Positions 32,340 through 53,630 of a stretch of 60,787 nt of DNA are shown one piece after another. The stretch is from Rhodospirillaceae bacterium (GTDB taxonomy: Bacteria > Pseudomonadota > Alphaproteobacteria > Thalassobaculales > Thalassobaculaceae). The stretch covers positions 1 to 60,787 of the forward strand of contig JABIRP010000403.1 in NCBI GenBank assembly GCA_018699735.1. The letters run 5' to 3'. Below the pieces are notes generated by a model. It had not been told where the DNA came from, searched no databases, and was given only the letters and a program-made list of their open reading frames with translations. Every line of letters starts with the position of its first letter. Position 1 is the stretch's first letter. The position numbers were made by a program, and so were the translations under genes.

Positions 32340-32963
32340 TTAGGTGAGCGGGATATCGAGCACATGTTCCTTGAAAGCCGGGCGCTCAGCGCAGCGAGCG
32401 TACCAGGCCTCGAGATTGGGCATAGCCGGGCGGTCTTGGATCAGCGTTGTCCAGCGATAGCACTGAATGGCAACCGGGATGTCGGCCATGGTGAGCGCGT
32501 CGCCCATGATGTACTCGCGCCCGGCGAGACGATCATCGAGGATCTGCCAGACCTGGATGCCGCGAAGGCGCGCCTGATCAATCGCATCCAGATCACGCTC
32601 TGCCTCAGGTGTGCGCACCAGACCCCAAAATATGGGCAACATGTTAGGTGCGACCGTGGTTTGCTGCCAATCCATCCAGCGGTCGGCGTCGGCATAGGCT
32701 TGCGGGTCGGTCGGCGCCAGAGTACCGTTTGCGTGCTTGCTCACCAGGTATCGGGTGATGGCATTCGATTCCCATAGAACGAAACCATCATCGACGATCG
32801 TCGGTACCACCGAATTCGGGTTCATCGCGATGTAGTCGGCGTCCTTGGTCCGGCCGAAGGCGCCACCGATATCCTCGCGCTCAAAGGCGAGACCGATTTC
32901 ACCACAAACCCAGGTGACCTTCTGTACATTGCCGGAATTCGGGCGTCCGAGGATCTTAAGCAT
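32340..32963 (-). CDS. Glutathione S-transferase family protein
   Basis: A 207-residue GST. The thioredoxin-like N-domain is LKILGRPNSGNVQKVTWVCGE (Ser in the glutathione-activating position) with the cis-Pro segment NSVVPTIVDDGF and ESNAITRYL. The all-helical C-domain contains IMGDALTMADIPVA, the GST N-capping box. It uses glutathione on electrophiles. ATG 32963 is the start of the fold. It lies on the same strand as the creatininase-like gene, 41 nt upstream of it. Confidence 0.92.
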   Translation of the reverse strand: MLKILGRPNSGNVQKVTWVCGEIGLAFEREDIGGAFGRTKDADYIAMNPNSVVPTIVDDGFVLWESNAITRYLVSKHANGTLAPTDPQAYADADRWMDWQQTTVAPNMLPIFWGLVRTPEAERDLDAIDQARLRGIQVWQILDDRLAGREYIMGDALTMADIPVAIQCYRWTTLIQDRPAMPNLEAWYARCAERPAFKEHVLDIPLT

Positions 32964-33865: not shown

Positions 33866-33894
33866 TTGACACTGCCCTCGACTGGCATCACGAT
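33866..33894 (+). promoter_or_regulatory. Candidate sigma-70 promoter of the riboswitch operon
   Basis: A perfect -35 TTGACA (33866-33871) is followed after 17 bp by CACGAT (33889-33894), a weak -10. Transcription would start at about 33901, immediately before the P1 stem of the riboswitch. That agreement supports the assignment despite the weak -10. Confidence 0.6.
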
Positions 33895-33901
33895 TGCCAT
33901 T

Positions 33902-34008
33902 GTGATGCTGGGGTGCCCCGACGGCCATGACGACCAGGATGGCTGATCGGGACTGAGAGAAAACCCATCGAACCTGAACCGGGTGATTCCGGCGTAGGGA
34001 GACGTCAC
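33902..34008 (+). promoter_or_regulatory. TPP (thiamine pyrophosphate) riboswitch
   Basis: All hallmark elements are in order: GGGGTGCC (33910-33917), P3 stem CCCGA/TCGGG (33917-33921 with 33947-33951), CTGAGA (33953-33958), ACCC, GAACCTGA (33970-33977), and GCGTAGGGA (33992-34000). P1 is formed by GTGATG (33902-33907) and CGTCAC (34003-34008), six pairs including one wobble. It lies 72 nt before the start of the liv-type receptor gene. The Shine-Dalgarno GGGGAGG (34067-34073) and an upstream CGCCCC (34038-34043) could pair, suggesting translational control, though this part is inference. High TPP should switch the operon off. Confidence 0.95.
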
Positions 34009-34080
34009 CGGGCATGCCGCCCGTTCGATGGTTCCACCGCCCCTAGCGTTTTGAGTTGCTCCGAACGGGGAGGCGAATCC

Positions 34081-35217
34081 ATGCGGAAGATCATCGTAGC
34101 GACAGCCCAAATTGCGTTTCTTGCAGGCGCCCTCTCAAGTGGGTCCGCCCTGGCCGAGAGTGTCGATATTCCCATTCTTGTGCCGATCACCGGGTTTATC
34201 TCATTGGAGGGAACCGCGCAGCGCAATGGTGCGGTTCAGGCATTGGAGACCCCACCGGCCGGTGTATCGGTCTCTTACGAAGTCTCCGATACCTCAACGT
34301 CACCAGAAGTTGCGGTTAATGCGTTGAGGCGGGCGATCTCCAAGGGCAAGCCGGTCGCGGCCGCCGCATCCATCTTCGGCACTCAGATGTTGGCCATGCT
34401 GCCAATTGCCAAGCGGGCCGGTCTGCCATTGATCACGGTTTCTGGTACAGCCAAACTGACCGAGCTCGGCAACCCGTACATCTTCCGCTTCTTCCCCGGC
34501 GATGCCGTAGTCAAAGTGGCGCATGCGCGTTACGCGGTCGAGGAACTGGGCGCCAAGCGTCCGGCGATAATCTACCAGACCACATCCTACGGTCAGAGCG
34601 GCCGCGCCGAGCTTGCCCGCATCCTCACCAAACTCGGTGCGCCCCCGGTGTTCGAGGAGGCGCTGTCGGTGAAGGTGAAGGATATGCTGCCGGCGATCAC
34701 GAGGGCCAGGGCCGCCAAAGCTGACATGCTGTTGCTGCACTTGCATTCCGGGTCGACGGCGCTGGTCGTGCGCCAGGCTCGCGGAGCCGGATGGGATGTT
34801 CCAATCGTTGCCGGCTCGGCCATGCATCAACCGACCACGGCGGCATTGTTGCGTCCGGCCGAATTGAAGGGGGTTTGCGCCGAAAGCGCCTCTTCGCCGA
34901 TCTCCGAGAGCACTGCCGACGTCAAGGCGTTCACGGCCGAATTCCGCAAGCGCTTCAAGACGGAACCAGACGCCTTTGCACTCGGTCAATATGACGGTAT
35001 CCGCATGGTTCTGGCCGCGCTCAAGGACGGTGCCAAGGATGCCGAGGGTGTTCGCGCCTGGCTTTCAAGCCATACCCATAAGGGCCTAGCCATGACCTAC
35101 AAATCCGACGGCAAGGGCAACATGGCGCATGACGCCTTGATCCTTTGCTATGACGGATCGGGAAATGCGCCGCGCATTGTCAAACGCTACGATAATGTGG
35201 ATGGGGTGCTGGAGTAA
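34081..35217 (+). CDS. Liv-type ABC transporter substrate-binding protein under TPP control
   Basis: A 378-residue periplasmic receptor of the branched-chain amino acid binding family (Peripla_BP_6/LivK-like). The signal peptide is KIIVATAQIAFLAGALSSG with cleavage after ALA. Mature sequence has VPITGFISLEGTAQRNGAVQ, VAAAASIFGTQMLAMLPIAKRAGLPLITVSG and PDAFALGQYDGIRMVLAAL. The ATG at 34081 has GGGGAGG seven bases upstream and follows a TPP riboswitch. Regulation implies uptake of thiamine, HMP, thiazole or a related compound, though the fold is usual for amino acids, amides and urea. First gene of the K-H-MG-F operon. Confidence 0.88.
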   Translation: MRKIIVATAQIAFLAGALSSGSALAESVDIPILVPITGFISLEGTAQRNGAVQALETPPAGVSVSYEVSDTSTSPEVAVNALRRAISKGKPVAAAASIFGTQMLAMLPIAKRAGLPLITVSGTAKLTELGNPYIFRFFPGDAVVKVAHARYAVEELGAKRPAIIYQTTSYGQSGRAELARILTKLGAPPVFEEALSVKVKDMLPAITRARAAKADMLLLHLHSGSTALVVRQARGAGWDVPIVAGSAMHQPTTAALLRPAELKGVCAESASSPISESTADVKAFTAEFRKRFKTEPDAFALGQYDGIRMVLAALKDGAKDAEGVRAWLSSHTHKGLAMTYKSDGKGNMAHDALILCYDGSGNAPRIVKRYDNVDGVLE

Positions 35218-35243
35218 TGGTGCGAAATGTTCGCTGACTCCAG

Positions 35244-35322
35244 ATCGTCATTCCCGCGTAAGCGGGAATCCACTCTTGGCCCAGCTGCTGGTCTGGATTC
35301 CCGCTTACGCGGGAATGACGAT
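35244..35322. repeat. Family B palindrome, copy B1
   Basis: Perfect 29 bp inverted arms, ATCGTCATTCCCGCGTAAGC... (35244-35272) and its complement (35294-35322), with an inner pair CCAGC/GCTGG. Each arm itself holds the hairpin ATTCCCGC/GCGGGAAT. It lies between the receptor and first permease genes of the riboswitch operon. Copy B2 is at 48112. Confidence 0.95.
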
Positions 35323-35369
35323 GGGCGAAAACCGAGGTGGCGTCCACGCCTAGCCGGCCCGTCCACCAC

Positions 35370-36260
35370 ATGATAGACGCGCTGGCACAGCTGACCGTCA
35401 ACGGCATCGCGCTCGGTGCTGCCTATGCGCTAGCGGCGCTTGGGTTCGTGCTGGTGATCAACGCGGTTGGCGCTGTCAATTTTGCGCATGGTGATTTTGT
35501 GATGGCTGGTGGCTTCCTCGCGGTCGCGATCTCCGGTTATCTGCCCGCTGATCTGGAGCTTCCGGGGTTGGTGGTCTTACCGTTGACCATGCTGGTTGCG
35601 GCGGGTCTTGGGCTGCTGCTCTCGTTGATTGCCTATTTCCCGTTGCGGGGCCGGCCGCCCGTATCGGTTTTTATCTCCACCATCGCAGTCGCGATTATCC
35701 TGCAGCACGGAACCAATGCGATCTTTGGCCCAGCCCCACGGGCTGCACCGCCTGTGTTCGGCGACGGGCAGGTTGATCTTGGCATCGCATCCGTGTCGAT
35801 GCAGCAGGTCGCGGTGATCGTGGTCGCGGCGGTGTTGATCGGGGCCGTGGCGCTGGTCCTCTCGCGCACACGATTCGGACGGCGGCTTCGCGCTGCCGCT
35901 CAGGATCCCGAGATGGCCGAGGCGATCGGTATCGATGTGCCCCTAATGATTGCCGTCACCTTTGCTCTTGCCATTTCGTTGGCGGGGGCCACCGGCGCCT
36001 TGCTCGCCAACCAGTTCTTCGTCAGCCCGGACGACGGTGGGAACTATATGCTGAAGGCCTATATCGCGGTCGTTATCGGCGGTTGGGGGCGGATCCATGG
36101 CGCCGTGCTCGGTGCGTTGTTGATCGGAATGTTCGAGGTCGTGGTCGCCGCTGCCGCTTCCTATGTGGTTGCTGAGGCGTTGCTCTACGGTGCGTTGCTG
36201 GCGGTTCTGGTCCTGCGTCCGCAAGGTCTGTTCGGCGAGGCTGAGGGTAGGCGGGCATGA
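35370..36260 (+). CDS. Liv-type ABC transporter permease (LivH family)
   Basis: A 296-residue permease with about eight membrane helices. It opens ALAQLTVNGIALGAAYALAA, has the LivH signature AVNFAHGDFVMAGGFLAV, the loop RTRFGRRLRAAAQDPEMAEAIGID, and VIGGWGRIHGAVLGALLIGM near the end. It overlaps the following permease-ATPase fusion gene by four bases. ATG 35370 is preferred over the in-frame GTG at 35337, which would overlap the palindrome. Together with the MG fusion and LivF it forms the membrane pore and motor. Confidence 0.92.
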   Translation: MIDALAQLTVNGIALGAAYALAALGFVLVINAVGAVNFAHGDFVMAGGFLAVAISGYLPADLELPGLVVLPLTMLVAAGLGLLLSLIAYFPLRGRPPVSVFISTIAVAIILQHGTNAIFGPAPRAAPPVFGDGQVDLGIASVSMQQVAVIVVAAVLIGAVALVLSRTRFGRRLRAAAQDPEMAEAIGIDVPLMIAVTFALAISLAGATGALLANQFFVSPDDGGNYMLKAYIAVVIGGWGRIHGAVLGALLIGMFEVVVAAAASYVVAEALLYGALLAVLVLRPQGLFGEAEGRRA

Positions 36261-37999
36261 GATTGGCACTCGCCATATTGGGTTCAGCCCTGCTCGCCGC
36301 CTGGGGCGTCGGGTTTGCCGGGCCGTATGAGCAGCAGGTGTTGACAATTGCCGGCATCAACGCGCTGGCAGTGCTGGGGTATCAGTTGGTCTTCGGCCGT
36401 CTTGGCGCATTGTCTTTGGCGCAAGGCATCTTCTTCGCCGTCGGTGCTTACGCGACTGGGTTACTGGCGACGCGTTGGGGGTTGTCTTTCCCGGTCACCT
36501 TTCTGGTCTCGATCTTGGCCCCGATGCTCGTCGCGCTGGTGGTCTCAATTCCGGTGCTGCGGCTTGGCTCGCATTACTTCGCTTTGGCCACCCTCGGGAT
36601 TGCTCAGCTTGGCACTTTGGTGGCGGTCAACTGGGAAGATGTGACCGGTGGCGCCAATGGTATTTACGGCGTGCCTGAGATAGCCGCGTTCGGCCAGACA
36701 GTACCGGTGGGTTCGGCGATGTTGGTGTTGGTCTGGGGCTTGGTGGTGTTCGGTGTGATCCTTTTCGGCCTGTTGACCCAAGGTGCCAGAGGCGCTCGGT
36801 TGGCGACTTTGGAGCGCTCGCCTCTGGCTGCCGGTGCCATCGGCATCGATGCTGGCCGGACCCGGTTGACGCTGTTCCTGATCGGTGCCGGGTTTGCCGG
36901 TGCGGCTGGGGCCTTGCAAGCCCATGCGGTTGGTGTCGTCTCGCCTGCGGTTGCGCGATTTGACGTCATGGTAGCGATCCTGGCGATGGCGGTCATCGGC
37001 GGGCGGGGCAGTGCGCTCGGCGCAGTGCTGGGGGCTGTGTTGTTGACCCACCTGCCGGAATGGTTCCGAGCGTTTGAGAGTTATTACCTGATCGCTTACG
37101 GCGTCGCGGTTTTGGCCACGGTTATTCTGTTGCCGAGCGGTCTAGCGGGGCTGATCCGGCGTACTCCGGCTCGACCGCCAACTCGGCCACCGAATTGGGT
37201 CGCGACAGGACCTTTGGCTAAGTCACAAACTGGCTTTGCTCGACCGGCCGGGCTTGCTCGGCGGCCACCTGCGACGCTGACGGTTGCTGGTGCCGGCAAG
37301 CGCTTCGGCGGTCTCATCGCACTGGAAGGCGTCGACCTGCACATCTCCCCCGGACGCATAATCGGCCTGATCGGTCCGAACGGATCCGGCAAGACGACGC
37401 TGCTGAACCTGATCTCGGGGCTGGAACGCGCCGATACCGGCCGGGTTCGGCTCGACGCGGTGGATATCTCTGGCTTGCCGGCCAATCATATTGCCCGGCT
37501 TGGGGTTGCGCGCTGTTTTCAGCATCCGGACCTGCCGGGCGAGTTGACCGCGTTCGAGGCAGTATTGGCGGCGACCCCAGGTGACGCTAGTGCTGTTGAC
37601 CGTGCTGCTGACAGTGCTGCTGACCGGGCAATCGGTTGTTTGCGAGAGCTGGGCATAGACATGCTGGCGAGCCGCCGGGTCTCGGATTTGGCGGCGGCAG
37701 AGCAGCGTCGCCTGGAAATTGCCCGGGCGCTTGCCACCCAGCCGAGGGTCTTGTTGCTTGACGAACCCGCCGCTGGGTTAGGCGAGAACGAGCGCGTTGA
37801 TCTCGCTCGACAGCTGCGTCAACTCGCGGAGGGCGGGCTCGGAATTCTGGTGGTCGAGCATACGATGGACTTTCTGCTGCCGCTGGCAGACCGGGTCGTT
37901 TGCCTAGTTGCCGGGCGGCGGGTGGCCGAGGGAGAGGCCGCCGAGGTTGTTCGTGACCCGGCCGCTATCTCGGCCTACTTCGGGGAAGCGCCCGCATGA
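36257..37999 (+). CDS. Liv-type permease-ATPase fusion (LivM-LivG)
   Basis: A 580-residue fusion. Residues 1 to about 300 are a LivM permease (LGYQLVFGRLGALSLAQGIFF; ALAMAVIGGRGSALGAVLG-like end). A Pro/Arg/Ala-rich linker covers about 305-340. Residues about 342-578 are a LivG ATPase with Walker A LIGPNGSGKTT, Walker B VLLLDEPAAGL and the H-loop VEHTMDF. The ABC signature, normally LSxGQ, reads LAAAEQRRLEIARAL and lacks the Ser and Gly, so one ATP site is likely weakened. A repeated Ala/Asp run (DRAADSAADRA) precedes it. Coupled by a 4 bp overlap to LivH. Confidence 0.92.
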   Translation: MRLALAILGSALLAAWGVGFAGPYEQQVLTIAGINALAVLGYQLVFGRLGALSLAQGIFFAVGAYATGLLATRWGLSFPVTFLVSILAPMLVALVVSIPVLRLGSHYFALATLGIAQLGTLVAVNWEDVTGGANGIYGVPEIAAFGQTVPVGSAMLVLVWGLVVFGVILFGLLTQGARGARLATLERSPLAAGAIGIDAGRTRLTLFLIGAGFAGAAGALQAHAVGVVSPAVARFDVMVAILAMAVIGGRGSALGAVLGAVLLTHLPEWFRAFESYYLIAYGVAVLATVILLPSGLAGLIRRTPARPPTRPPNWVATGPLAKSQTGFARPAGLARRPPATLTVAGAGKRFGGLIALEGVDLHISPGRIIGLIGPNGSGKTTLLNLISGLERADTGRVRLDAVDISGLPANHIARLGVARCFQHPDLPGELTAFEAVLAATPGDASAVDRAADSAADRAIGCLRELGIDMLASRRVSDLAAAEQRRLEIARALATQPRVLLLDEPAAGLGENERVDLARQLRQLAEGGLGILVVEHTMDFLLPLADRVVCLVAGRRVAEGEAAEVVRDPAAISAYFGEAPA

Positions 38000-38012
38000 T
38001 GGATTCGGCATG

Positions 38013-38714
38013 ATGGCTCCTTTGTTATCGATCGAAAACCTGACGGTCCAGAGCGATGGTGCGGTGGCGGTTGACGGCCTGTCGCTCTCGGTCGCAGCGG
38101 GGGAAGTCGTTGCTGTATTGGGGGCCAATGGGGCAGGTAAATCCTCGCTTCTGCGGTCGATTATCGGTCTTGAGAACCCGTCGGCTGGGCGCATTCTGTT
38201 CGGTGGACGGGACTTGTCGCGGTATGCAACCCATCGGCGGGCCAGGCTCGGTATCGGATATTGCCCCGAGGGCCGACGTCTCTTTAACGCAATGACGATT
38301 GCCGATACCCTGGATGCCGCCGGGCCATCGGACCCCGAGGAGCGCATCAGACGGAAAGCGGCAGTCCATGATCTCTTTCCGCAATTGGTCGAGCGATCGG
38401 AGGCGCTTGCCTGGCAACTTTCCGGCGGCCAACAGCAAATGCTCGCCATTGCCCGAGCGCTCATGGGGGCACCACGACTCTTGCTTTTGGACGAGCCGTC
38501 TCTCGGTCTGGCGCCTGCGGTTCTTGGTGAACTCATGGAGGTGGTCGGGAAGCTCGCCTCGCAAGGTGTCGGGGTGCTGTTGGCGGAGCAGGCGGCGGCG
38601 CGCGCCCTGGCGGTTGCCGACCGGGTTGCGGTGATGCGGCGCGGTCGGGTCGTGCTGGACGCGGCGGCTGACACGCTGGAGCGCGACGCCGTAGCGCGGG
38701 AGATGTTGGGCTAG
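38013..38714 (+). CDS. Liv-type ABC transporter ATPase (LivF family)
   Basis: A 233-residue ATPase with Walker A VLGANGAGKSS, Q-loop region, the LivF words GIGYCPEGRRLFNAMT, a canonical signature LSGGQQQMLAIARAL and Walker B LLLLDEPSLGLAP. It supplies the intact composite site paired with the degenerate LivG domain of the preceding fusion. ATG 38010 and 38013 are adjacent; the latter is used. Last gene of the riboswitch-led operon; the next gene starts 78 nt later after an A/T-rich stretch. Confidence 0.95.
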   Translation: MAPLLSIENLTVQSDGAVAVDGLSLSVAAGEVVAVLGANGAGKSSLLRSIIGLENPSAGRILFGGRDLSRYATHRRARLGIGYCPEGRRLFNAMTIADTLDAAGPSDPEERIRRKAAVHDLFPQLVERSEALAWQLSGGQQQMLAIARALMGAPRLLLLDEPSLGLAPAVLGELMEVVGKLASQGVGVLLAEQAAARALAVADRVAVMRRGRVVLDAAADTLERDAVAREMLG

Positions 38715-38792
38715 GATATTCTCTAATTGGCGGTTTTGGGGTTTTATTCTGCTCATAACGCCTCATACTGGAATTATTCTATTTGGGAGGGA

Positions 38793-39560
38793 ATGATGGA
38801 TAGACGACAGGCTCTTACGTTCCTTGGCGCTGCTGTCGCGTGCCCGACCTGCGCCGCAATTGCCAATGCCTCGGAAGACAAAGGAGGCCAAAGCTGGGGT
38901 TATGAAGGCGAATACGGACCCGAACGTTGGGGTGCCGTCAGCCCTGCTAACATCACGTGTTCGATTGGGCGCCAGCAGTCACCGATCGATTTGCGCAATC
39001 CGATCCCGGCCGAATTGTCGGATATTCAAGTGCATTTCCGGCCCTCCAAATTAGAAGTACTGAACAACGGGCACACGATCGAGGTCGTGGTTCCAAAGGG
39101 TAGCTTCATGGTGCTCGATGGCATGCGCTACGAGCTTTTGCAGTTCCATTTCCACCACCCGAGCGAGCATCTGGTTGAGGGTTCATCCTTCCCGATGGAG
39201 GCGCATTTCGTACACAAGTCGGCGAAAGGCGACCTTGCTGTGCTTGGTGCCTTTATTGCCGCTGGTGAAGAGCATCCGATGCTTAAACGGGTTTGGGACC
39301 GGATGCCGATGGAGGGTGGAAAGACCGTGCGCGACGCCACCATCGTGCGCCCGTCCGATTTGCTGCCGGACGATCACGAGCATTTCCGCTACGCCGGATC
39401 TTTGACCACGCCGCCATGTTCGGAAATTGTCAGCTGGATCGTGTTCAATGAGCCGATCGAAGCCTCAAGCGCGCAAATTCAGAAATTCGCCGGCTTGTTT
39501 CCGTTGAATGCCCGGCCGGTGCAACCGATGAACCGCCGGTTTATTCTGGGCTCGTTCTAG
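38793..39560 (+). CDS. Alpha-class carbonic anhydrase, Tat-exported
   Basis: Hydrates CO2 to bicarbonate in the periplasm. The 255-residue precursor starts with DRRQALTFLGAAVACPTCAA, a twin-arginine signal. Catalytic blocks are IGRQQSPIDLR, LQFHFHHPSEH (two Zn histidines), MEAHFVHKS (third) and GSLTTPPCSEIVSWIVF (Thr/Glu gate and substrate pocket). GGGAGGG precedes ATG 38793. It lies behind the riboswitch operon but with its own leader, so a functional link is uncertain. Confidence 0.93.
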   Translation: MMDRRQALTFLGAAVACPTCAAIANASEDKGGQSWGYEGEYGPERWGAVSPANITCSIGRQQSPIDLRNPIPAELSDIQVHFRPSKLEVLNNGHTIEVVVPKGSFMVLDGMRYELLQFHFHHPSEHLVEGSSFPMEAHFVHKSAKGDLAVLGAFIAAGEEHPMLKRVWDRMPMEGGKTVRDATIVRPSDLLPDDHEHFRYAGSLTTPPCSEIVSWIVFNEPIEASSAQIQKFAGLFPLNARPVQPMNRRFILGSF

Positions 39561-45873: not shown

Positions 45874-46848
45874 CTATCGCTCTTTCACATAAGGCATGCC
45901 GATCGCCTTCGGTGCGACCGCTTTGCCGATGAAGCCGGCGAGCAGGATCACGGTCAGGATGTAGGGCAGCGCTTGGATTGCCTGGACGGGAATTTCGCCG
46001 ATGCCCGGTATCGCTATCCCTTGTAGGCGAATGGCGACCGCATCGAGAAAGCCGAACAATAGGCACGCGCCGAGTGCCGGGCCGGGCCGCCACTTACCGA
46101 AAATCATGGCGGCAAGGGCTATGAACCCCTTGCCCGCCGTCATGTCGCGCACGAAGGAAGCTGAATGCGCGGTCGAGAGGTAGGCGCCGGCGATACCGCA
46201 CAGCACGCCGCAGCAGGCAAGCGCGCCATACCGCAGCGCCGTCACTGAGATGCCGGCTGTATCGACCGCCTCTGGCGCTTCCCCAACCGCCCGCAGGCGC
46301 AACCCAAACCGGGTCCGCTGCACCACGTACCAGGTCAGCGGCACGATAGCGAGAGCAGCGTAGACCAAGAGGTTGTGGCCGCTCAGCAGCTCACGATAGA
46401 TCGGTCCCAGGATCGGAATGCGGCCGATCTCTTCGGCGAACGGCCAGATGATCGGGGTGAAGCGCGCCTCTGTCGGTAGGGCCGGTGTCTGGCCACCTTG
46501 GTGAAACCAGGCGATGCCGAGCACAACCGTCAACCCGGCTGCCAGGATGTTGATCGCGACGCCACTGACCACCTGATTGCCGCGGTGTGTGATGCAGGCA
46601 AACCCGTGCAGCATCGCGAGCGCGAATGAGACGGCGATCCCAGCGCCAAGCCCGAACCAGTGCGAGCCGGTGACGTAAGCGGTTGCGGCGGCGGCGAAGG
46701 CGGCAGCCAGCATTTTACCCTCGAGCCCAATGTCGATTATGCCTGAACGCTCGGAAAACAGCCCGGCCATCGCCGCCAATATGAGCGGTGTTGCGACCCG
46801 AAGTGTGGCGTCGAATGTCAGGAGCGTGAGGAGCCAGGCGTCTTCCAT
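45874..46848 (-). CDS. BMP-type nucleoside ABC transporter permease (NupQ/YufQ-like)
   Basis: The roughly 324-residue permease has nine or so helices. It opens LLTFDATLRVATPLILAAMAGLFSERSG and has IDIGLEGKML, the family word next to it. Later FGLRLRAVGEAPEAVDTAGI and GKGFIALAAMIFGKW match BMP-family permeases. It pairs with the preceding permease gene (7 nt gap) and presumably with the ATPase and receptor encoded 4 kb upstream on the same strand. Nucleoside uptake is the usual role. GTG 46851 is an alternative start. Confidence 0.9.
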   Translation of the reverse strand: MEDAWLLTLLTFDATLRVATPLILAAMAGLFSERSGIIDIGLEGKMLAAAFAAAATAYVTGSHWFGLGAGIAVSFALAMLHGFACITHRGNQVVSGVAINILAAGLTVVLGIAWFHQGGQTPALPTEARFTPIIWPFAEEIGRIPILGPIYRELLSGHNLLVYAALAIVPLTWYVVQRTRFGLRLRAVGEAPEAVDTAGISVTALRYGALACCGVLCGIAGAYLSTAHSASFVRDMTAGKGFIALAAMIFGKWRPGPALGACLLFGFLDAVAIRLQGIAIPGIGEIPVQAIQALPYILTVILLAGFIGKAVAPKAIGMPYVKER

Positions 46849-46855
46849 CACCGCC

Positions 46856-47986
46856 TCACTCGCCCGGTGCCGGGGCGGTTTGCGAAAACAGGCGTGCCAT
46901 CACTGGGTTGAACATATAAGCCAGCGCACCGGAGAACAGAATGACCAGGCCCTGGATCACCAATACCATGTCGCGGGTGATGGAGTGGAACTCGAAATCC
47001 AGCTCGGCGCCGCCTTGATAGAGTGCGCCGAACAGCAGGCTCGCCAGCACGATGCCGACCGGGTGGTTACGCCCCATCAGGGATACGGCGATGCCTGTAA
47101 ACCCGTAGCCGGCGGTGAAGTCGAGCAGCAAGCGATGTTGCACGCCCATGATCTCATTGACGCCGACCAGCCCTGCCAATGCGCCCGAGACCGCCATGGT
47201 CATGACGATGACGCGCCGAGTGTCGATGCCGGCATAGCGCGCTGCTGTATCGTTGAACCCGACGGTGCGGATTGCGTAACCAGGGCGCGAACGCCAGATG
47301 AAGAACCAGACGAAGACGCAAGCCAGGAGCGCTAGTACGAAGGAAAGATTGAGCGGCGATCGGCTGACCTCAATCCCAATCCAGGCCAACACCTCATGCA
47401 TGAACGGCAACCAGACGCCAGGCTCGAACTCGCGGCTTTCCGGCGACATCTGACCTGGCTTGATCAGTACATTGACCAGCAGATAGACCATCAGCGCCGA
47501 GGCGATGAAGTTGAACATGATAGTGGTGATGACGATGTGGCTGCCGCGATGCGCCTGCAGCCAGGCGGGAATATAGGCCCAGCCGGCACCGAAAGCGGCG
47601 GCCGCCAAAATTGCCGCCGGGAGCACCAGTCCGGCCGGTAAATGCCCGTCCAGCCCAAGCGCCACCAGCCCGGCCCCAAGCCCGCCGATATAGGCCTGTC
47701 CTTCGCCGCCGATGTTAAACAACCCGGCATGGAAGGCGACAGCGACAGCGAGACCAGTGAAGGTAAAATTGGTTGCATAGTAGAGCGTGTAACCAATCGC
47801 CTCCTCACGCCCGAAGGCGCCAGCGACAAGCACCTGGAGTGCCTCCAGCGGATCTTCACCGATGATCAAGATGATCAGCCCGGAGACCAGAAACGCGGCC
47901 GCGATGTTCAAAAGCGGGATCAACCCGACATCGACCCAACGTGGCGGCTGGCCGGATTGCGTCACAGGATGGAACTTTCGTCGCAC
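46856..47986 (-). CDS. BMP-type nucleoside ABC transporter permease (NupP/YufP-like)
   Basis: A 376-residue permease. Features are LLNIAAAFLVSGLIILIIGEDP, ATNFTFTGLAVAVAFHAGLFNIGGEGQAYIGG, GSHIVITTIMFNFIASALMVYLL and the coupling loop AIRTVGFNDTAARYAGIDTRR. These match the first permease of BmpA-type nucleoside transporters. GTG start at 47986. The ATPase gene that usually precedes it is 3 kb away beyond an opposite-strand cassette. Confidence 0.9.
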   Translation of the reverse strand: MRRKFHPVTQSGQPPRWVDVGLIPLLNIAAAFLVSGLIILIIGEDPLEALQVLVAGAFGREEAIGYTLYYATNFTFTGLAVAVAFHAGLFNIGGEGQAYIGGLGAGLVALGLDGHLPAGLVLPAAILAAAAFGAGWAYIPAWLQAHRGSHIVITTIMFNFIASALMVYLLVNVLIKPGQMSPESREFEPGVWLPFMHEVLAWIGIEVSRSPLNLSFVLALLACVFVWFFIWRSRPGYAIRTVGFNDTAARYAGIDTRRVIVMTMAVSGALAGLVGVNEIMGVQHRLLLDFTAGYGFTGIAVSLMGRNHPVGIVLASLLFGALYQGGAELDFEFHSITRDMVLVIQGLVILFSGALAYMFNPVMARLFSQTAPAPGE

Positions 47987-48320
47987 ATGCGTCTGATTTT
48001 CCCGGTCTTTCTTTACGATACCACTTCACGATGCGCGATGGCTGTCCGTCAAGACAATTGGCAGCGGATGTGTTGTGATGTGGGGTGGATCCTGTGACTC
48101 TCTAAATTTACCGTCATTCCTGCGAAGGCGGGAATCCAAGCTTGTATTGGAGCCAGATTCTGGATTCCCGCCTTCGCAGGAATGACGTAAGAGAGCGGGC
48201 GGGGTCGGCAAAAAGGTCCGCAGTGTTTTGGGGTTAATCAATTTCACAGATATATATTCATGTTATCATATGTACGATAAAACCTTGCTTGCATGGACAT
48301 GATTGGGAGATGCCAAAGCC
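47987..48320. other. 334 bp intergenic region with palindrome B2 and an A/T-rich promoter zone
   Basis: No open frame worth reporting. The left part holds the divergent start of the permease gene. The centre holds the B2 palindrome (48112-48187). The right part, 48236-48290, is strikingly A/T-rich for this genome (GATATATATTCATGTTATC) and precedes the YeeE-like gene; it is a candidate promoter or repressor site. This is also the left edge of the cassette that splits the nucleoside transporter operon. Confidence 0.7.
48112..48187. repeat. Family B palindrome, copy B2
   Basis: Perfect 27 bp inverted arms (48112-48138 and 48161-48187), beginning CGTCATTCCTGCGAAGGCGG. Same family as B1 at 35244 (CGTCATTCC-GCG-AAGC-GGGAATCCA), with compensating base changes that preserve pairing in each copy. 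Confidence 0.95.
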
Positions 48321-48752
48321 ATGGAGAATTTCACACCAATTTCGGCGTTTGCCGGGGGACTGATGATCGGCGGAGCGGCGATTGTTCTGCTGTTGTTCAA
48401 TGGACGTGTCGCCGGTATCAGCGGTATCGCGGGCGGGTTATTGGCCCCAATGCGAGGTGATGCCCTGTGGCGGATTGTGTTTCTGGCCGGTCTCGCCGTC
48501 GGCCCGGTGCTGTATTCTCTGGCCACAGGCGAGGCGATTTCGATCGATGTCACCAGCTCAGTGCCGGCCCTCATTATCGGTGGATTTTTGGTCGGCTTTG
48601 GCAGCAGCGCCGGAAGCGGATGCACCAGCGGCCACGGTGTGTGCGGTCTCGCGCGGTTCTCCAAGCGATCCTTGGTGGCCACCGCGACGTTCATGGCCGC
48701 AGCACTGATCACCGTCTATTTGACCCGTCATGTCTTTGGAGTGCTGTCATGA
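48321..48752 (+). CDS. YeeE/YedE-family membrane protein, first half-transporter
   Basis: A 143-residue protein with four membrane segments. It carries GRVAGISGIAGGLLAP and the signature GSSAGSGCTSGHGVCGLARF, whose cysteine is used for thiosulfate or sulfide-related transport in YeeE/YedE proteins. ATG 48321 has GGGAG upstream. It overlaps the second half-transporter gene by four bases. Such pairs in alphaproteobacteria are often linked to sulfide or thiosulfate handling. Confidence 0.88.
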   Translation: MENFTPISAFAGGLMIGGAAIVLLLFNGRVAGISGIAGGLLAPMRGDALWRIVFLAGLAVGPVLYSLATGEAISIDVTSSVPALIIGGFLVGFGSSAGSGCTSGHGVCGLARFSKRSLVATATFMAAALITVYLTRHVFGVLS

Positions 48753-49198
48753 CCCGCGTCATTGTTGCCGGGCTGGCCGGCATTCTGTTTGGCGTTGGTC
48801 TGACCGTTTCCGCCATGATCAACCCGGCCAAAGTCTTGGGCTTTCTCGATCTCGCCGGGAACTGGGACCCGAGCCTGGCCTTTGTGCTTGCCGGTGCGAC
48901 CGGGATCGCGGCACTTGCCTTTCGAACCATCCTCAAGCGTGACAAACCGGTGCTGAGCGACGGGTTCCAGGTGCCGACCGTTAGCGCCATCGATCGACCC
49001 TTGGTCTGGGGGTCGGCGGTTTTCGGCATCGGCTGGGGCATTGTCGGGCTTTGCCCTGGGCCGACCTTCTCGACCTTGTTGCAAGGGCGGTGGGAGACTG
49101 GGTTGATCTTTTCAGCCATGATCGTCGGCATGGCGGTCCACCGCTTATTGCGCCGGGTCGTATCACGGAACCAGGCAACCACGATTGAAGCCGAGTAG
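48749..49198 (+). CDS. YeeE/YedE-related membrane protein, second half-transporter (DUF6691-like)
   Basis: A 149-residue protein with four membrane segments and the words GVGLTVSAMINPAKVLGFLDLAGNWD and GWGIVGLCPGPTFSTL, the second carrying the conserved Cys. It normally pairs with a YeeE/YedE-like half to form one channel for a sulfur species. The ATG overlaps the preceding stop (ATGA). A metallo-hydrolase gene follows 14 nt later and is probably in the same operon. Confidence 0.88.
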   Translation: MTRVIVAGLAGILFGVGLTVSAMINPAKVLGFLDLAGNWDPSLAFVLAGATGIAALAFRTILKRDKPVLSDGFQVPTVSAIDRPLVWGSAVFGIGWGIVGLCPGPTFSTLLQGRWETGLIFSAMIVGMAVHRLLRRVVSRNQATTIEAE

Positions 49199-49212
49199 GA
49201 CGGGGGAAGACG

Positions 49213-50094
49213 ATGAACCATTTACGCGTCGGCGATGCCGAGTTGTTTCGGATCGAGGAGATGATCGACACCAGCTTCGTTGCGACGGACTTCATTCCCT
49301 CCTTCGACGAGGCTGCCCTGGCGCCGCACATGGACTGGCTGGCGCCCAACCATTACAACCCCGCCACCGGCGGGTTGTCGCTCTCGATGCATGCCTGGGT
49401 GGTCCGGACCGGCCGGCACACGGTCTTGATCGATACTTGCGTTGGTAACGATAAAGACCGCATGCCGCGCGCCCATTGGCATCAGATGGACACGCCCTTC
49501 CTCGACCGCCTGCGGGCCACCGGCGTTGCCCCGGAAGATATCGACTACGTCATGTGCACGCATCTGCATCCTGACCACGTCGGCTGGAACACCAAGCTCG
49601 AAGACGGTCGCTGGGTGCCGACCTTCCCCAATGCCAAGTATCTTTTCGGCGAGGTCGAATATGAGCATTGGCTGGCCAACCCGTCGGATAATTCGGTGCG
49701 CCAGAACGCGATCAACGACAGCGTGCTGCCGATCGTTGAGGCCGGCCGTGCCGAGATGATCCGGGATGGTCATGATGTTGACGGCAGCTTCACCGTCGAG
49801 GCCTCGCCCGGACACACCCCCGGCCATCACGATTTCCGCCTGGTCTCGGACGGTAAGGACGCCCAATTCACCGGCGACGCCCTCCACCACCCGGTGCAGA
49901 TCTACAACGTCGACTGGTCCACCAGCGCCTGCTCCGACCCATTATTGGCCGCGAAATCACGCCGACGCATCCTGGAGAAATGTTGCGAGCGCAACTCGCT
50001 GCTGCTACCGGCCCATTTCCTGACCCCCAGCTGCGGGCATGTGGTCGATGCGGGTGGAGGTGAATTCGGGTTTGATTGGGGGCAGGGGGAATAA
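49213..50094 (+). CDS. Metallo-beta-lactamase-fold hydrolase
   Basis: A 293-residue MBL protein. The zinc motif is CTHLHPDHVGWN (HxHxDH), with further ligands in EASPGHTPGHHDF, TGDALHHPVQI and LLLPAHF. The size and the N-terminal layout (VVRTGRHTVLIDTCVGNDK) resemble the lactonase/alkyl-sulfatase-like MBL subgroup that includes AHL lactonases. Its position after two sulfur-related membrane proteins could suggest a thiol-linked substrate, but the sequence is not that of a persulfide dioxygenase. Confidence 0.88.
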   Translation: MNHLRVGDAELFRIEEMIDTSFVATDFIPSFDEAALAPHMDWLAPNHYNPATGGLSLSMHAWVVRTGRHTVLIDTCVGNDKDRMPRAHWHQMDTPFLDRLRATGVAPEDIDYVMCTHLHPDHVGWNTKLEDGRWVPTFPNAKYLFGEVEYEHWLANPSDNSVRQNAINDSVLPIVEAGRAEMIRDGHDVDGSFTVEASPGHTPGHHDFRLVSDGKDAQFTGDALHHPVQIYNVDWSTSACSDPLLAAKSRRRILEKCCERNSLLLPAHFLTPSCGHVVDAGGGEFGFDWGQGE

Positions 50095-50102
50095 AGTATA
50101 TG

Positions 50103-50119
50103 TATAGCATAATGCTATA
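50103..50119. promoter_or_regulatory. Palindromic operator candidate of the TacAT-like pair
   Basis: TATAGCATAATGCTATA is an inverted repeat with only the centre base unpaired. It lies 41 nt before the antitoxin start in an A/T-rich promoter zone. Ribbon-helix-helix antitoxins of this type repress their own operon through such sites. Confidence 0.65.
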
Positions 50120-50159
50120 AATTGATTATATTGCTACCTACAGTGACACGAGCGATGCC

Positions 50160-50456
50160 ATGACCGATGTAGCAAACCCTCGCGATGCAAATCTTCCGGC
50201 AAACCGACAGGTCAACCTGCGGCTCGCTTCGGATCGCCTTGATGTGATTGATAGAGCAGCGGCAATCGAGAATACCTCGCGCACGGAGTTCATGACCAAT
50301 ACAGCTTACCGCGAGGCCGAAAGGGTGATCTCCGAGCAATCGCTGCTACGCATTTCCTCGGACGCATATGAGAGCCTAGTCGATATGCTGCGCCAGCCGG
50401 CAAAGCCAATTCCTGAAATACAGGATTTGATAGCGATCCGCTCTCCGTGGGAGTGA
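50160..50456 (+). CDS. TacA-like antitoxin (DUF1778)
   Basis: A 98-residue protein. RQVNLRLASDRLDVIDRAA followed by NTSRTEFMTNTAYREAERVI is the DUF1778 ribbon-helix-helix sequence. The C-terminal SLLRISSDAYESLVDML and later Pro-rich tail bind the acetyltransferase toxin. It overlaps the toxin gene by 10 bp and is preceded by a palindromic operator. Together they form a type II system in which the toxin blocks aminoacyl-tRNA. Confidence 0.9.
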   Translation: MTDVANPRDANLPANRQVNLRLASDRLDVIDRAAAIENTSRTEFMTNTAYREAERVISEQSLLRISSDAYESLVDMLRQPAKPIPEIQDLIAIRSPWE

Positions 50457-50992
50457 CCTACGCGAAGCCCGAACCGATTACGTTGTCGCATGAACTGAGC
50501 AATTTCCGCTGCGGAGACGATCGAATTGACAGGTGGTTGCGCGATCACGCTGTCTCAAATGCCATAAAATTAGCGGGTTCAGTCCGAGTGGTTTCCGTGA
50601 GTGATACACGTGAGGTTGTCGCCTTCTACGCGCTGTCCCACAAAGTGATTACGGGGCGAAGCTTGCCTGGGCGGATGCGCCGAAACATGCCGCCCGAGAT
50701 CCCGGCGGTTTTTATCGGCCAGTTCGCCGTTGCCCTGGATCACCAGGGCAGCGGGCTCGGCAAGGCGTTGCTGAAGGACATGTTCAATCGGATTGTCCAT
50801 TCGCTTGCGGCCATTCCGGCACCATTGATCGCCTTGGATGCCGCGAACGAGGAGGCCGCACGGTTCTGGCGACATTGGGGTTTCCGGCCCTACCCGGATT
50901 TGATGGACACCGCTTATGTGATGCGAACGGTCGATCTTCTGGCGTCGATGGGATTGAGCTACGAGGCTGTGTTGGAGGGCCTGCGTGATTGA
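50447..50992 (+). CDS. TacT-like GNAT toxin
   Basis: The roughly 181-residue acetyltransferase toxin has LSHELSNFRCGDDRIDRWLRDHA (the TacT N-terminal word), REVVAFYALSHKVITG, the acetyl-CoA loop VALDHQGSGLGKALLKD and RFWRHWGFRPYPDL with the catalytic Tyr region. TacT-type toxins acetylate the amino group of charged tRNA and halt translation. GTG 50447 and GTG 50453 (overlapping the antitoxin stop) are both possible starts. It is the last gene of the cassette inside the transporter operon. Confidence 0.9.
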   Translation: MGVTYAKPEPITLSHELSNFRCGDDRIDRWLRDHAVSNAIKLAGSVRVVSVSDTREVVAFYALSHKVITGRSLPGRMRRNMPPEIPAVFIGQFAVALDHQGSGLGKALLKDMFNRIVHSLAAIPAPLIALDAANEEAARFWRHWGFRPYPDLMDTAYVMRTVDLLASMGLSYEAVLEGLRD

Positions 50993-51029
50993 AGCGTCAG
51001 TCCGCGTAATCACATTTTTCCGCCTTTCC

Positions 51030-52619
51030 TCACCCCACTGTCACATTCGCCATCATCAGCCCGAGCGTTCGTTCATCCGCTTCCGCTGCCGCCACCTCGC
51101 CGACGATCCCTCCGGCTGACATGACCAGGATGCGGTCGGCCAGGGACATGATCTCATCCAACTCGACCGAAACCAATAATATCGCAACCCCAGCGTCGCG
51201 CATGGCGATTAGGCGTTTGTGGATAAACTCGATGGCACCGATGTCGACGCCGCGGGTCGGCTGGCCAACCAGCAGCACATCCGGGTGGCGCTCCATCTCA
51301 CGGGCCAGAACGATCTTCTGCTGGTTGCCGCCGGAGAAATTGGCCGACAGCAAGCTGGGATCGGGGGGGCGTACGTCATAGGCGGCCATGCGGTCGGCGC
51401 ATTCCGACAGAATAGCATCCTGATCGATCAGCGGTCCCGAAACGTAGGCCGGGTCGTCATGGTGGCCGAGGATGGCGCATTCGCAGGCATTGAACTGCAT
51501 GACCAGACCCATATGCCGGCGGTCTTCCGGCACATGCGCCAGACCGAGCTGTCGCATGTCAGCCGCGTTCATTGGCCGCTCTTTGGTTATCTCCGTATCG
51601 CCAAGCCGTATGGTGCCTCGGCTCGGCGGGCACATGCCGGAGAGTGCCTCCAGCAGCTCGCTTTGGCCATTTCCGGAAACCCCCGCGATCCCGACAATCT
51701 CTCCGGCGCGAACCTCGAAGGATACTTGCCGCAAGCGCTCGACGCCGGCCGCGTCGGTGATGCCGAGATCGCTGATCGAGAGCGCCGGCGCACCGGGTCG
51801 GGCCTCGGTGCGTTCGACCCGGAGCAGCACTTTGCGGCCAACCATGAGCTCTGCCAGTTCCTCGCGATCGGTCTCTGATGTGGCTCGATGTGCCACCATC
51901 TCACCGCCGCGCATGACCGAAACGGTATCGGTGATCGCCATGATTTCGCGCAGCTTGTGTGTGATCAGAATGACGGTAACGCCGCGCTTGCGAAGGGCGC
52001 GGAGGATCTCGAACAACTGCTCGGTCTCGCCGGGGGTGAGTACGCCGGTCGGCTCGTCCAAGATCAGGATACGAGCGCCGCGAACCAAGGCCTTCAAAAT
52101 CTCGACCCGTTGTTGTGAGCCCACCGGTAGGTCGGCAACCACCGCGTCCGGGTCGACCGAGAGCCCATAGTCGCGCGCCAGATCTTCCAGCTCGCCTCTG
52201 ACACTGGCAGCATCGGGCGCCAACCGCCAGTTCCGCTCCATACCGAGCATGACGTTCTCAAGCACCGTAAATGTCGGCACCAACATGAAATGCTGATGCA
52301 CCATGCCGATCCCCTGGGCGATCGCGTGCTGGCTGTCGGTGATCACGACGGGAACGCCATCGACCCGGATCACGCCCTCGTCGGCCCGGTAGAAGCCGTA
52401 GAGGATGCTCATCAGTGTCGATTTGCCGGCGCCGTTCTCTCCAATAATGCCGTGAATTGTCCCGGCCTGAACGTTAAGCGAGACCGCCCGATTGGCCTGT
52501 ACCGCGCCGAAGCGCTTGGAGATGCCGGCAAGTTCGATTGCCGGTGGCGGTGTAGAATTGGAAACGGCGGGAGAAGTGCCTTCCCCCGCCGTCACCGTAT
52601 CTGTCGTTGTGCCAGTCAC
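51030..52619 (-). CDS. BMP-type nucleoside ABC transporter ATPase (NupO/YufO-like)
   Basis: A 529-residue tandem ATPase. The first domain has GENGAGKSTLMSILYGFYR, signature GSQQRVEILKALVRGA and LILDEPTGVLTPGE. The second has GVSGNGQSELLEALSG (Lys-less P-loop), FSGGNQQKIVLAREM and LVGQPTRGVDIGA. This degenerate second half is usual in sugar/nucleoside ABC ATPases. GTG start at 52619. Its receptor gene is 18 nt upstream; the two permease genes are separated from it by a 3 kb opposite-strand cassette. Confidence 0.95.
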   Translation of the reverse strand: MTGTTTDTVTAGEGTSPAVSNSTPPPAIELAGISKRFGAVQANRAVSLNVQAGTIHGIIGENGAGKSTLMSILYGFYRADEGVIRVDGVPVVITDSQHAIAQGIGMVHQHFMLVPTFTVLENVMLGMERNWRLAPDAASVRGELEDLARDYGLSVDPDAVVADLPVGSQQRVEILKALVRGARILILDEPTGVLTPGETEQLFEILRALRKRGVTVILITHKLREIMAITDTVSVMRGGEMVAHRATSETDREELAELMVGRKVLLRVERTEARPGAPALSISDLGITDAAGVERLRQVSFEVRAGEIVGIAGVSGNGQSELLEALSGMCPPSRGTIRLGDTEITKERPMNAADMRQLGLAHVPEDRRHMGLVMQFNACECAILGHHDDPAYVSGPLIDQDAILSECADRMAAYDVRPPDPSLLSANFSGGNQQKIVLAREMERHPDVLLVGQPTRGVDIGAIEFIHKRLIAMRDAGVAILLVSVELDEIMSLADRILVMSAGGIVGEVAAAEADERTLGLMMANVTVG

Positions 52620-52637
52620 GTGCTGGTCACGCGCCGG

Positions 52638-53630
52638 TTATGGGCACTTGCTGTCGGCCATGTAGTCGTGGACCTTGATGGAGCCGGACAGAATGCCTTT
52701 CTCGGCCTCCGCGACCTTGGCTTTCATCGGCCCGGTAACCAGCTTGGCGTTGTTGTCATCAAGCGCCCAACCGACACCGTTCTCGGCCAGCCCCAGAACC
52801 TGGATGCCGGCTTTCCAAGTGCCGTCCTTGGCGCCCTTGAAAGCCGCGTATGCAGCCACATCGACGCGTTTGAGCATCGAGGTCAGCATGGTGCCGGGCT
52901 GGATATGGTTCTGGTTAGAATCGACGCCGATCGCGAGCTTGCCGGCATCCTTGGCGGCCTGATAAACGCCGATGCCGGTACCGCCGGCCGCCGCATAGAC
53001 CACGTCAGCGCCTCGGTCAAACTGCGAGCGGGCGAGCTCGGCGCCCTTGGTCGGATCATTCCAGGCCGATGGCGTCGTGCCCGTCATGTTCTGCAAAACA
53101 CTGGCACTGCCATTGGCCCATTTCACGCCCTGAACGTAGCCGCAGGCAAATCGCCGGATCAGCGGAATGTCCATACCGCCAACAAAACCGACCTTGCCGG
53201 TTTTTGAGGCTTCGGCCGCCATCACACCGACCAGGAACGAGCCTTCCTGTTCCTTGAAGACCACCGACTGCACATTCGGCAGGTCGACCACCATGTCGAT
53301 GATGGTGAAGCGGACTTTCGGGAATTCCTTGGCGACTTTCTCGATTGCCGGGGCTTGCGCGAAGCCGACGCCGAGGATTGGATTGGCACCCTTCTGCGCC
53401 ATGCGACGGATGGCCTGTTCGCGCTGGCTCGGGTTGGTAACCTCGAACTCGCGATACTTGATCCCGGTCTCTTTGGCGAATTTCTCGACGCCGTTATAGA
53501 CACCCTCGTTAAAGCTCTTGTCGAACTTTCCACCCATATCAAAAACGACGGCTGGCTTGATTTCTTCCGCTTGTGCGCTGACGGCCGTCAACATGGCGGC
53601 GGCGGTAGCGGCGATTAGAGTTACCCGCAT
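52638..53630 (-). CDS. BMP-family nucleoside-binding lipoprotein-like receptor
   Basis: A 330-residue periplasmic receptor of the BmpA/Med family. The signal peptide is TLIAATAAAMLTAVSAQA. Core words are FDMGGKFDKSFNEGVYNGVEKFAKE, NPSQREQAIRRMAQKGANPI, KTGKVGFVGGMDIPLIRRF and VVYAAAGGTGIGVYQAAKDAG. It has no Cys lipobox, so it is probably soluble in the periplasm. It binds a purine nucleoside or similar compound and delivers it to the permease pair. GGGAGC precedes ATG 53630. Confidence 0.93.
   Translation of the reverse strand: MRVTLIAATAAAMLTAVSAQAEEIKPAVVFDMGGKFDKSFNEGVYNGVEKFAKETGIKYREFEVTNPSQREQAIRRMAQKGANPILGVGFAQAPAIEKVAKEFPKVRFTIIDMVVDLPNVQSVVFKEQEGSFLVGVMAAEASKTGKVGFVGGMDIPLIRRFACGYVQGVKWANGSASVLQNMTGTTPSAWNDPTKGAELARSQFDRGADVVYAAAGGTGIGVYQAAKDAGKLAIGVDSNQNHIQPGTMLTSMLKRVDVAAYAAFKGAKDGTWKAGIQVLGLAENGVGWALDDNNAKLVTGPMKAKVAEAEKGILSGSIKVHDYMADSKCP

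Follow-up and report, generated by a model that had tools for sequence, protein, structure and literature searches.

A Liv-type ABC importer operon behind a thiamine pyrophosphate riboswitch in Rhodospirillaceae and related bacteria: a candidate importer of a thiamine-related compound, possibly the thiazole half

ATP-binding cassette (ABC) importers of the HAAT type, such as LivJ/LivK-LivHMGF, and thiamine pyrophosphate (TPP) riboswitches are each known; their combination for the import of thiamine or of its thiazole half would be new within the literature covered. The combination was found in a 60,787-base stretch of DNA, here called the window, from contig JABIRP010000403.1 of a Rhodospirillaceae bacterium; all coordinates are window positions. 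In this stretch a TPP riboswitch precedes a receptor gene followed by genes for Liv-type permeases and ATPases. The system resembles LivJ/LivK-LivHMGF in receptor fold, in the two BPD_transp_2-type permeases and two ATPases, and in operon make-up, but LivM and LivG are fused, the Ser and Asp conserved in the leucine-binding homologues are replaced and the TPP riboswitch is located in front. Its identification as an importer of a thiamine-related compound is well supported, because the association with the riboswitch is conserved, the amino-acid signature of the receptor is missing and the genomes carrying it have gaps in the thiamine pathway.

The UrtABCDE urea importer provides the best NCBIfam models for the LivH-type permease (UrtB, 161.5 bits) and the LivF-type ATPase (UrtE, 204.4 bits), but neither score reaches its equivalog cut-off (250.3 and 285.8 respectively), and a urea importer was discarded on these grounds. 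The sole NCBIfam match of the receptor is PRK15404.1, under cut-off, and the LivH-like and LivF-like assignments by NCBIfam all fall under the equivalog cut-offs for LivH, LivG, LivF and Urt. The ThiBPQ thiamine importer likewise lies behind a TPP riboswitch and imports a thiamine compound, but it differs in receptor and permease types and is separately encoded in the window's genome, where the single ThiB match sits elsewhere; the receptor did not match the ThiB-type NCBIfam model TIGR01276. The pyrimidine/B1 importer ThiXYZ is also an ABC system controlled by a TPP riboswitch and frequently occurs in the same genomes (where it was named by architecture), but with an NMT1/SsuA-type receptor and another permease type. 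ThiW, a predicted thiazole transporter, would have its substrate in common with the system proposed here, but is a single integral membrane protein and not an ABC system with a receptor.

The B1 transporter genes tabulated in the survey PMC10881298 are thiB, thiT, thiY, thiV, cytX, ykoF, thiPerm and omr1, and that table does not include a Liv-type system; thiazole auxotrophs, lacking thiG, are described there as rare in the samples considered. The RegPrecise collection of RNA regulons (PMC3766115) counts 19 TPP-linked transporter orthologues, among which an earlier entry for the Liv system may be present. In titles and abstracts of the open-licence literature, without supplements, no Liv-type thiamine or thiazole importer was found reported.

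The features of the locus are given below, each with the evidence used for its assignment.

33899-34018, + strand: TPP riboswitch aptamer RF00059 (cmscan 55.1 bits, cut-off 54.3; also upstream of most orthologues)
34038-34048, + strand: candidate switching segment (folds of one sequence)
34067-34075, + strand: Shine-Dalgarno stretch GGGGAGGCG of the receptor gene (sequence)
34081-35217, + strand: periplasmic receptor, HAAT/Peripla_BP_6 subfamily (PF13458, alignments, AlphaFold2, Foldseek)
35370-36260, + strand: LivH-type permease (NCBIfam UrtB/LivH models, below cut-off)
36257-37999, + strand: LivM-type permease and LivG-type ATPase fused in a 580-aa protein (PF02653 and PF00005 in the same frame)
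38010-38714, + strand: LivF-type ATPase (NCBIfam UrtE/LivF models, below cut-off)

The original prediction, a complete TPP aptamer located 72 nt before a LivK-type receptor with LivH, LivM-LivG and LivF, was borne out. The RF00059 match covers the full length of the model (positions 1-105, E 4.5e-08) and is the sole Rfam match over cut-off in the whole window; its score is barely above the cut-off, and counterparts upstream of orthologues reach 67.6 bits. The 72-nt spacing is obtained when counting from the end of P1, and the receptor ATG at 34081 lies 62 nt past the end of the Rfam match. The receptor was assigned to PF13458 (Peripla_BP_6) over cut-off, with E 5.3e-46, and the set typical of HAAT systems, a Peripla_BP_6 receptor with LivH/LivM-type permeases and LivG/LivF-type ATPases, is complete within one operon. 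Gene coordinates were as predicted, except for LivF, which probably starts at 38010 or 38013, as picked by eye from the translation, rather than at 37908, the start of the longest open reading frame; for the LivH-type permease a longer form with a GTG start at 35337 is possible. The gene order recurs in most of the 91 loci, counting the window, with a receptor detected by the gene caller: the LivH-type permease directly follows it in 86, the LivM-LivG fusion is the second gene in 75 (contig ends cut some of the others) and the LivF-type ATPase the third in 66. In 8 of the 98 loci the caller showed no receptor; among these, L156 and L164 are receptor-free stretches.

In the free minimum-energy fold, the segment 34039-34048 pairs with the 5' strand of the aptamer (33906-33916), while masking the aptamer, to mimic binding of TPP, makes 34038-34044 pair with the Shine-Dalgarno. 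The pairing probability of the latter is 0.27-0.99 in the free RNA, with 5 of 9 positions at or below 0.36, and 0.74-1.0 at 8 of 9 positions, with 0.0 at a bulged A, in the masked one. These folds of one sequence suggest that TPP may repress translation by such a switch; the plain RNA fold is not unusual (z-score -0.98). The expression platform varies, because in L118, L124 and L132 the start codon of the longest frame is only 5-10 nt after the conserved 3' motif of the aptamer.

Recurrence of the association was evaluated on two sets of orthologues. A protein search (receptor cut-off E<=1e-60) of a sample of 240 genomes of the class detected one close receptor orthologue per genome in 20, the window's genome included, the other 19 being 46-66% identical to the window receptor. 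In 14 of the 20 the receptor is preceded by a TPP aptamer over cut-off, and in one more by a weaker one, of 48.6 bits, for a total of 15. For the remaining five (L012, L014, L019, L020 and L022) no aptamer was detected within 1.5 kb, and a whole-genome scan revealed no other TPP element nearby. The second set, referred to as the named loci, comprises the best 80 of 162 confirmed relatives obtained by an alignment scan of public genomes. Many of them are congeneric, 27 being titled Azospirillum, and others come from Nisaea, Thalassobaculum, SAR116, Skermanella, BAL199, other alphaproteobacterial metagenome-assembled genomes (MAGs) and Betaproteobacteria MAGs. A covariance model built from the 14 class-sample elements matched 68 of the 80, once each and always on the receptor strand, and no further match at E<=0.1 was found in the 1.28 Mb of named loci, scanned on both strands. 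The matched elements end 19-171 nt before the aligned receptor start, with the exception of L093, where 9 bases overlap. Six loci (L044, L051, L095, L096, L098 and L103) belong to class-sample genomes, and their elements are contained in the 14-element model or near-identical to its members. Three (L027, L050 and L099) are untestable, a contig end no more than 240 bases from the aligned receptor cutting their upstream region, while nine of the 77 testable loci lack the element (L068, L084, L085, L086, L087, L089, L091, L092 and L101). A chance match was rejected in view of this recurrence, and a riboswitch serving another gene by the location of all 68 elements, just before the receptor on its own strand (with the overlap in L093).

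The element thus accompanies most of the orthologues but not all, and operons devoid of it, which had been indicated beforehand as evidence against a thiamine-related function, do exist. Yet the aligned receptors of these operons retain the key residues described below, which fits altered regulation and not a different ligand. In a quick tree of 68 rows, those without riboswitch are found in about three places among the riboswitch-bearing ones; how often the element was gained or lost is uncertain, because the forks holding them have 82-92% support, none being starred. In five of these loci (L084, L086, L091, L092 and L101) a di-iron oxygenase-like gene stands beside the operon (weak Ribonuc_red_sm/AurF matches, two of the five scanned), and an iron alcohol dehydrogenase-like gene is near the operon in L084, L086, L101 and the untestable L099. 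The oxygenase-bearing loci possibly use the same ligand as a nutrient. The contig of L092 is titled as a Klebsiella pneumoniae MAG, a label which is probably wrong; at the receptor it is very near the Betaproteobacteria MAG L091.

The receptors form a clear subfamily: in a plasmid search, among the 30 of 322 rows listed, identity drops from 61-64% for five Azospirillum sequences to less than 30%. The AlphaFold2 model of the window receptor (predicted local distance difference test, pLDDT, 91.5) has as top Foldseek matches LivJ (4gnr) and LivK (3td9), with aromatic-acid binders lower down; none of the 50 rows listed has thiamine in its title. In the alignments with 4gnr and 3td9, evaluated by eye, a conserved Ser corresponds to Gly100, an Asp to Ser246, a Tyr/Phe to Glu43 and a Tyr to His222. 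All four replacing residues are identical in 65 of 65 alignment rows, riboswitch-less ones included, and so are Thr123, Gln166 and Tyr170. The Ser and the Asp or Glu that belong to the amino-acid site of leucine receptors are therefore missing from all the rows aligned. Three outgroups, 28% identical, have Ser at 100, Asn, Ile and Ala at 43, and Glu, Phe and Phe at 222; position 246 is Gly, Ala or Pro, the Asp being absent here as well, so that the Asp site alone is not telling. The role of this site is hinted at by an Anabaena receptor, which has Asn there in 4obb and Asp after the N280D mutation; the title of 4obb names a 3-methyl-2-... ligand, here taken for a keto acid. The p-hydroxybenzoate binder 4ey3 also lacks both Ser and Asp, as judged by eye. 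This residue pattern speaks against amino acids as ligands and favours a single ligand conserved across the rows.

Genes of the thiamine pathway were searched for in the 20 receptor-positive genomes of the class sample, the carriers, and compared with the 220 receptor-negative ones. ThiG was counted only at E<1e-60, weaker matches looking like cross-matches, and is present in 115 of the 240 genomes. ThiC and ThiG are found in five carriers each. ThiE was detected in 19 of the 20 and is over the thiE equivalog cut-off in all four genomes tested, the window's included. Thi4, considered as a substitute thiazole synthase, was rejected, being found in none of the 20 at E<=1e-10. The window's genome has no match for ThiC, ThiG or ThiM in an assembly which is 91% complete and split in 431 contigs. 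In all five carriers with ThiC a TPP element is located about 0.6 kb or less ahead of the thiC match, and in four of the five with ThiG one is located about 1.4 kb ahead of the thiG match, that of G186 being under cut-off. A homologue of one ThiX-type permease behind other TPP riboswitches is present in 13 carriers; the ThiXYZ name was given by architecture, and the two receptors scanned match only the sulfonate-receptor model, under cut-off. In G087 a third TPP element precedes, as seen by eye, a binding protein of another kind.

A further operon was observed in two carriers, where a second TPP riboswitch heads genes for a LuxE-like ligase, a LuxC-like reductase, an ABC importer with an NMT1-type receptor and a short-chain dehydrogenase (L155 3968-9774 in G195, L156 3389-9200 in G080; genes assigned by Pfam in G080 and by homology in G195). 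In G195 it is located about 10 kb from the Liv operon. It looks like a system salvaging a carboxylate thiamine vitamer, which would be reduced to the aldehyde and the alcohol.

The receptor is associated with the absence of ThiG: the gene is found in 2 of the 15 TPP-controlled class carriers versus 110 of the 220 receptor-negative genomes (p=0.0065), or in 5 of 20 when all class carriers are taken (p=0.037). When only ThiC-positive genomes are considered, 1 of 5 carriers has ThiG, versus 65 of 73 others (p=0.0016). Among the named loci, the genomes of 50 of the 80 were tested, 38 with the element, 9 without it and 3 untestable. The 38 comprise six genomes with both ThiC and ThiG, three with ThiC alone, none with ThiG alone and 29 with neither; the six ThiG-positive ones are all Azospirillum or Skermanella, and ThiG is found in none of the other 32. 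The corresponding numbers are 2, 2, 2 and 3 for the nine without element, and 0, 0, 1 and 2 for the three untestable ones. When single losses in TPP-controlled carriers are pooled over the two sets, six genomes have ThiC without ThiG and one the reverse, versus 8 and 45 among receptor-negative genomes (p=0.0004). Two Nisaea species are included in the six, and dropping one gives p=0.0014; the class sample alone gives 3 to 1 (p=0.02).

The original prediction had proposed the import of thiamine, 4-amino-5-hydroxymethyl-2-methylpyrimidine (HMP), thiazole or a breakdown product. A thiamine-related substrate in general is upheld, and among the compounds named the gene losses favour the thiazole half. 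The system is thus tentatively interpreted as a HAAT-type ABC importer of a thiamine vitamer, made only at low TPP, with 4-methyl-5-hydroxyethylthiazole or a close relative as its most likely substrate. Import of this compound would close the gap in the pathway, because carriers keep ThiE, usually have a source of pyrimidine (ThiC or a ThiXYZ-type system) and are often without any of the thiazole sources searched for. According to this model, when TPP is bound the 5' strand of the aptamer would release the downstream segment, which would cover the Shine-Dalgarno and stop translation, while without TPP the operon would be translated. The receptor would capture the thiazole compound, LivH and LivM would carry it inward at the expense of ATP hydrolysed by LivG and LivF, and ThiE would join the phosphorylated thiazole to HMP pyrophosphate, deriving from ThiC or from imported pyrimidine, to give thiamine phosphate. 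In Azospirillaceae having both ThiC and ThiG, uptake would merely spare synthesis.

Several observations weigh against this interpretation. The thiazole kinase ThiM (PF02110, E<=1e-15) was detected in a single carrier, G186, and imported thiazole would therefore need another kinase; no thiazole enzyme recurs in the operon across loci. The second TPP riboswitch of the window's genome is followed by a thiBPQ set. ThiG is kept and ThiC missing in G079, which carries the element, and likewise in G056, G182 and G186, three of the five class carriers devoid of it; when all 20 class carriers are counted, with or without riboswitch, the single losses are even, 4 to 4, versus 8 to 45 in receptor-negative genomes (p=0.04). 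ThiC and ThiG are both retained in the Azospirillum and Skermanella carriers tested (six of six named genomes, and G051 in the class sample). All the association tests ignore shared ancestry and the number of tests, and many genomes are incomplete, as is the window's. For the named genomes, which are pooled in the 6-to-1 count, there are neither completeness figures nor a separate control set. Finally, it is by alignment that Glu43 and His222 are putatively placed in the pocket.

The main rival to thiazole import is that intact thiamine or thiamine phosphates are taken up, the carriers being thiamine auxotrophs in which the Liv system replaces ThiBPQ. ThiC and ThiG are in fact both missing in 10 of the 15 TPP-controlled class carriers, as in 29 of the 38 named ones, and ThiB (E<=1e-30) was found only in the window's own genome, so that most carriers lack any other known thiamine receptor of this kind; the Liv element of G086 is the sole TPP riboswitch detected in that genome, and the invariant Glu43 would suit a cationic ligand. 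However, ThiE, which intact thiamine would not require, is kept in nearly all carriers, thiamine pyrophosphokinase PF04263 is found in none of the 20 (thiamine kinase ThiK was not searched for), several carriers have ThiC without ThiG, and the window's genome holds thiBPQ in addition to the Liv system; this explanation is regarded as rather unlikely. Uptake of the pyrimidine half, as HMP, 4-amino-5-aminomethyl-2-methylpyrimidine (AmMP) or its N-formyl derivative (FAMP), would agree with the lack of ThiC in 15 of 20 carriers, and pyrimidine vitamers are indicated in PMC10881298 as substrates of systems such as ThiV and ThiXYZ. It is made distinctly improbable by the lack of association between the receptor and ThiC loss (ThiC in 5 of 20 carriers versus 73 of 220 receptor-negative genomes, p=0.62), by the TPP-controlled ThiXYZ-type system already present in 13 carriers and the LuxE-LuxC operon present in two further ones, and by the absence of ThiG from four of the five ThiC-positive class carriers.

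Substrates outside the TPP supply were also considered. A degradation product doubling as a nutrient, or another thiamine-linked compound, might be suggested by the five oxygenase-bearing riboswitch-less loci, where the same receptor residues occur in a catabolic-looking setting of oxygenase and, in some, alcohol dehydrogenase genes; such loci are a minority to which the system may have been recruited, and elsewhere the riboswitch points to TPP supply, which leaves this hypothesis a slim chance. A branched-chain amino-acid importer could be induced when TPP runs low, since acetolactate synthase and further TPP-dependent enzymes then fail, and the fold, the closest solved relatives, LivJ and LivK, and the Liv-type operon architecture would fit it. 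Such a substrate is, judging from the sequences, highly improbable, because Gly100 and Ser246 are found in place of Ser and Asp, together with Glu43 and His222 in place of Tyr/Phe and Tyr, without exception in the rows aligned.

Other genes were observed around the operon. In the window, an alpha-type carbonic anhydrase is encoded at 38727-39560 on the same strand, 12 bases after LivF (longest-frame start), and is not among the listed neighbour clusters of four or more loci. A glutathione transferase lies at 32340-32963 (- strand), with homologues near the operon, in varying positions, for a total of 13 loci including the window. At 45874-53630 (- strand) a BmpA/PnrA-type ABC receptor and an ATPase gene are found, with two permease genes further on, one of which was scanned and is BPD_transp_2; this is probably a nucleoside importer. 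In Azospirillum and kin a gene of about 420 aa after LivF is conserved (L023 12569-13837, L024 12490-13755, and homologues in 26 more loci); the two proteins scanned have no Pfam match. Orotate phosphoribosyltransferase, close behind in several loci, was rejected as an operon partner, the three proteins scanned being ordinary orotate phosphoribosyltransferases.

More tentatively still, the system could be the first ABC importer of high affinity that is dedicated to the thiazole half, a HAAT subfamily in which the amino-acid site was turned into a thiazole site and which would be widespread in Rhodospirillales-like and SAR116 bacteria lacking ThiG and keeping ThiE; it would imply an unrecognised thiazole kinase, because ThiM is missing from nearly all the carriers tested. 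Current annotation describes such systems as 'branched-chain amino acid ABC transporter'. If the interpretation is true, a receptor-based thiazole importer would correct predictions of auxotrophy, and a vitamin route of many marine and soil Alphaproteobacteria, including Azospirillum, would be revealed, which is now hidden by the amino-acid annotation.

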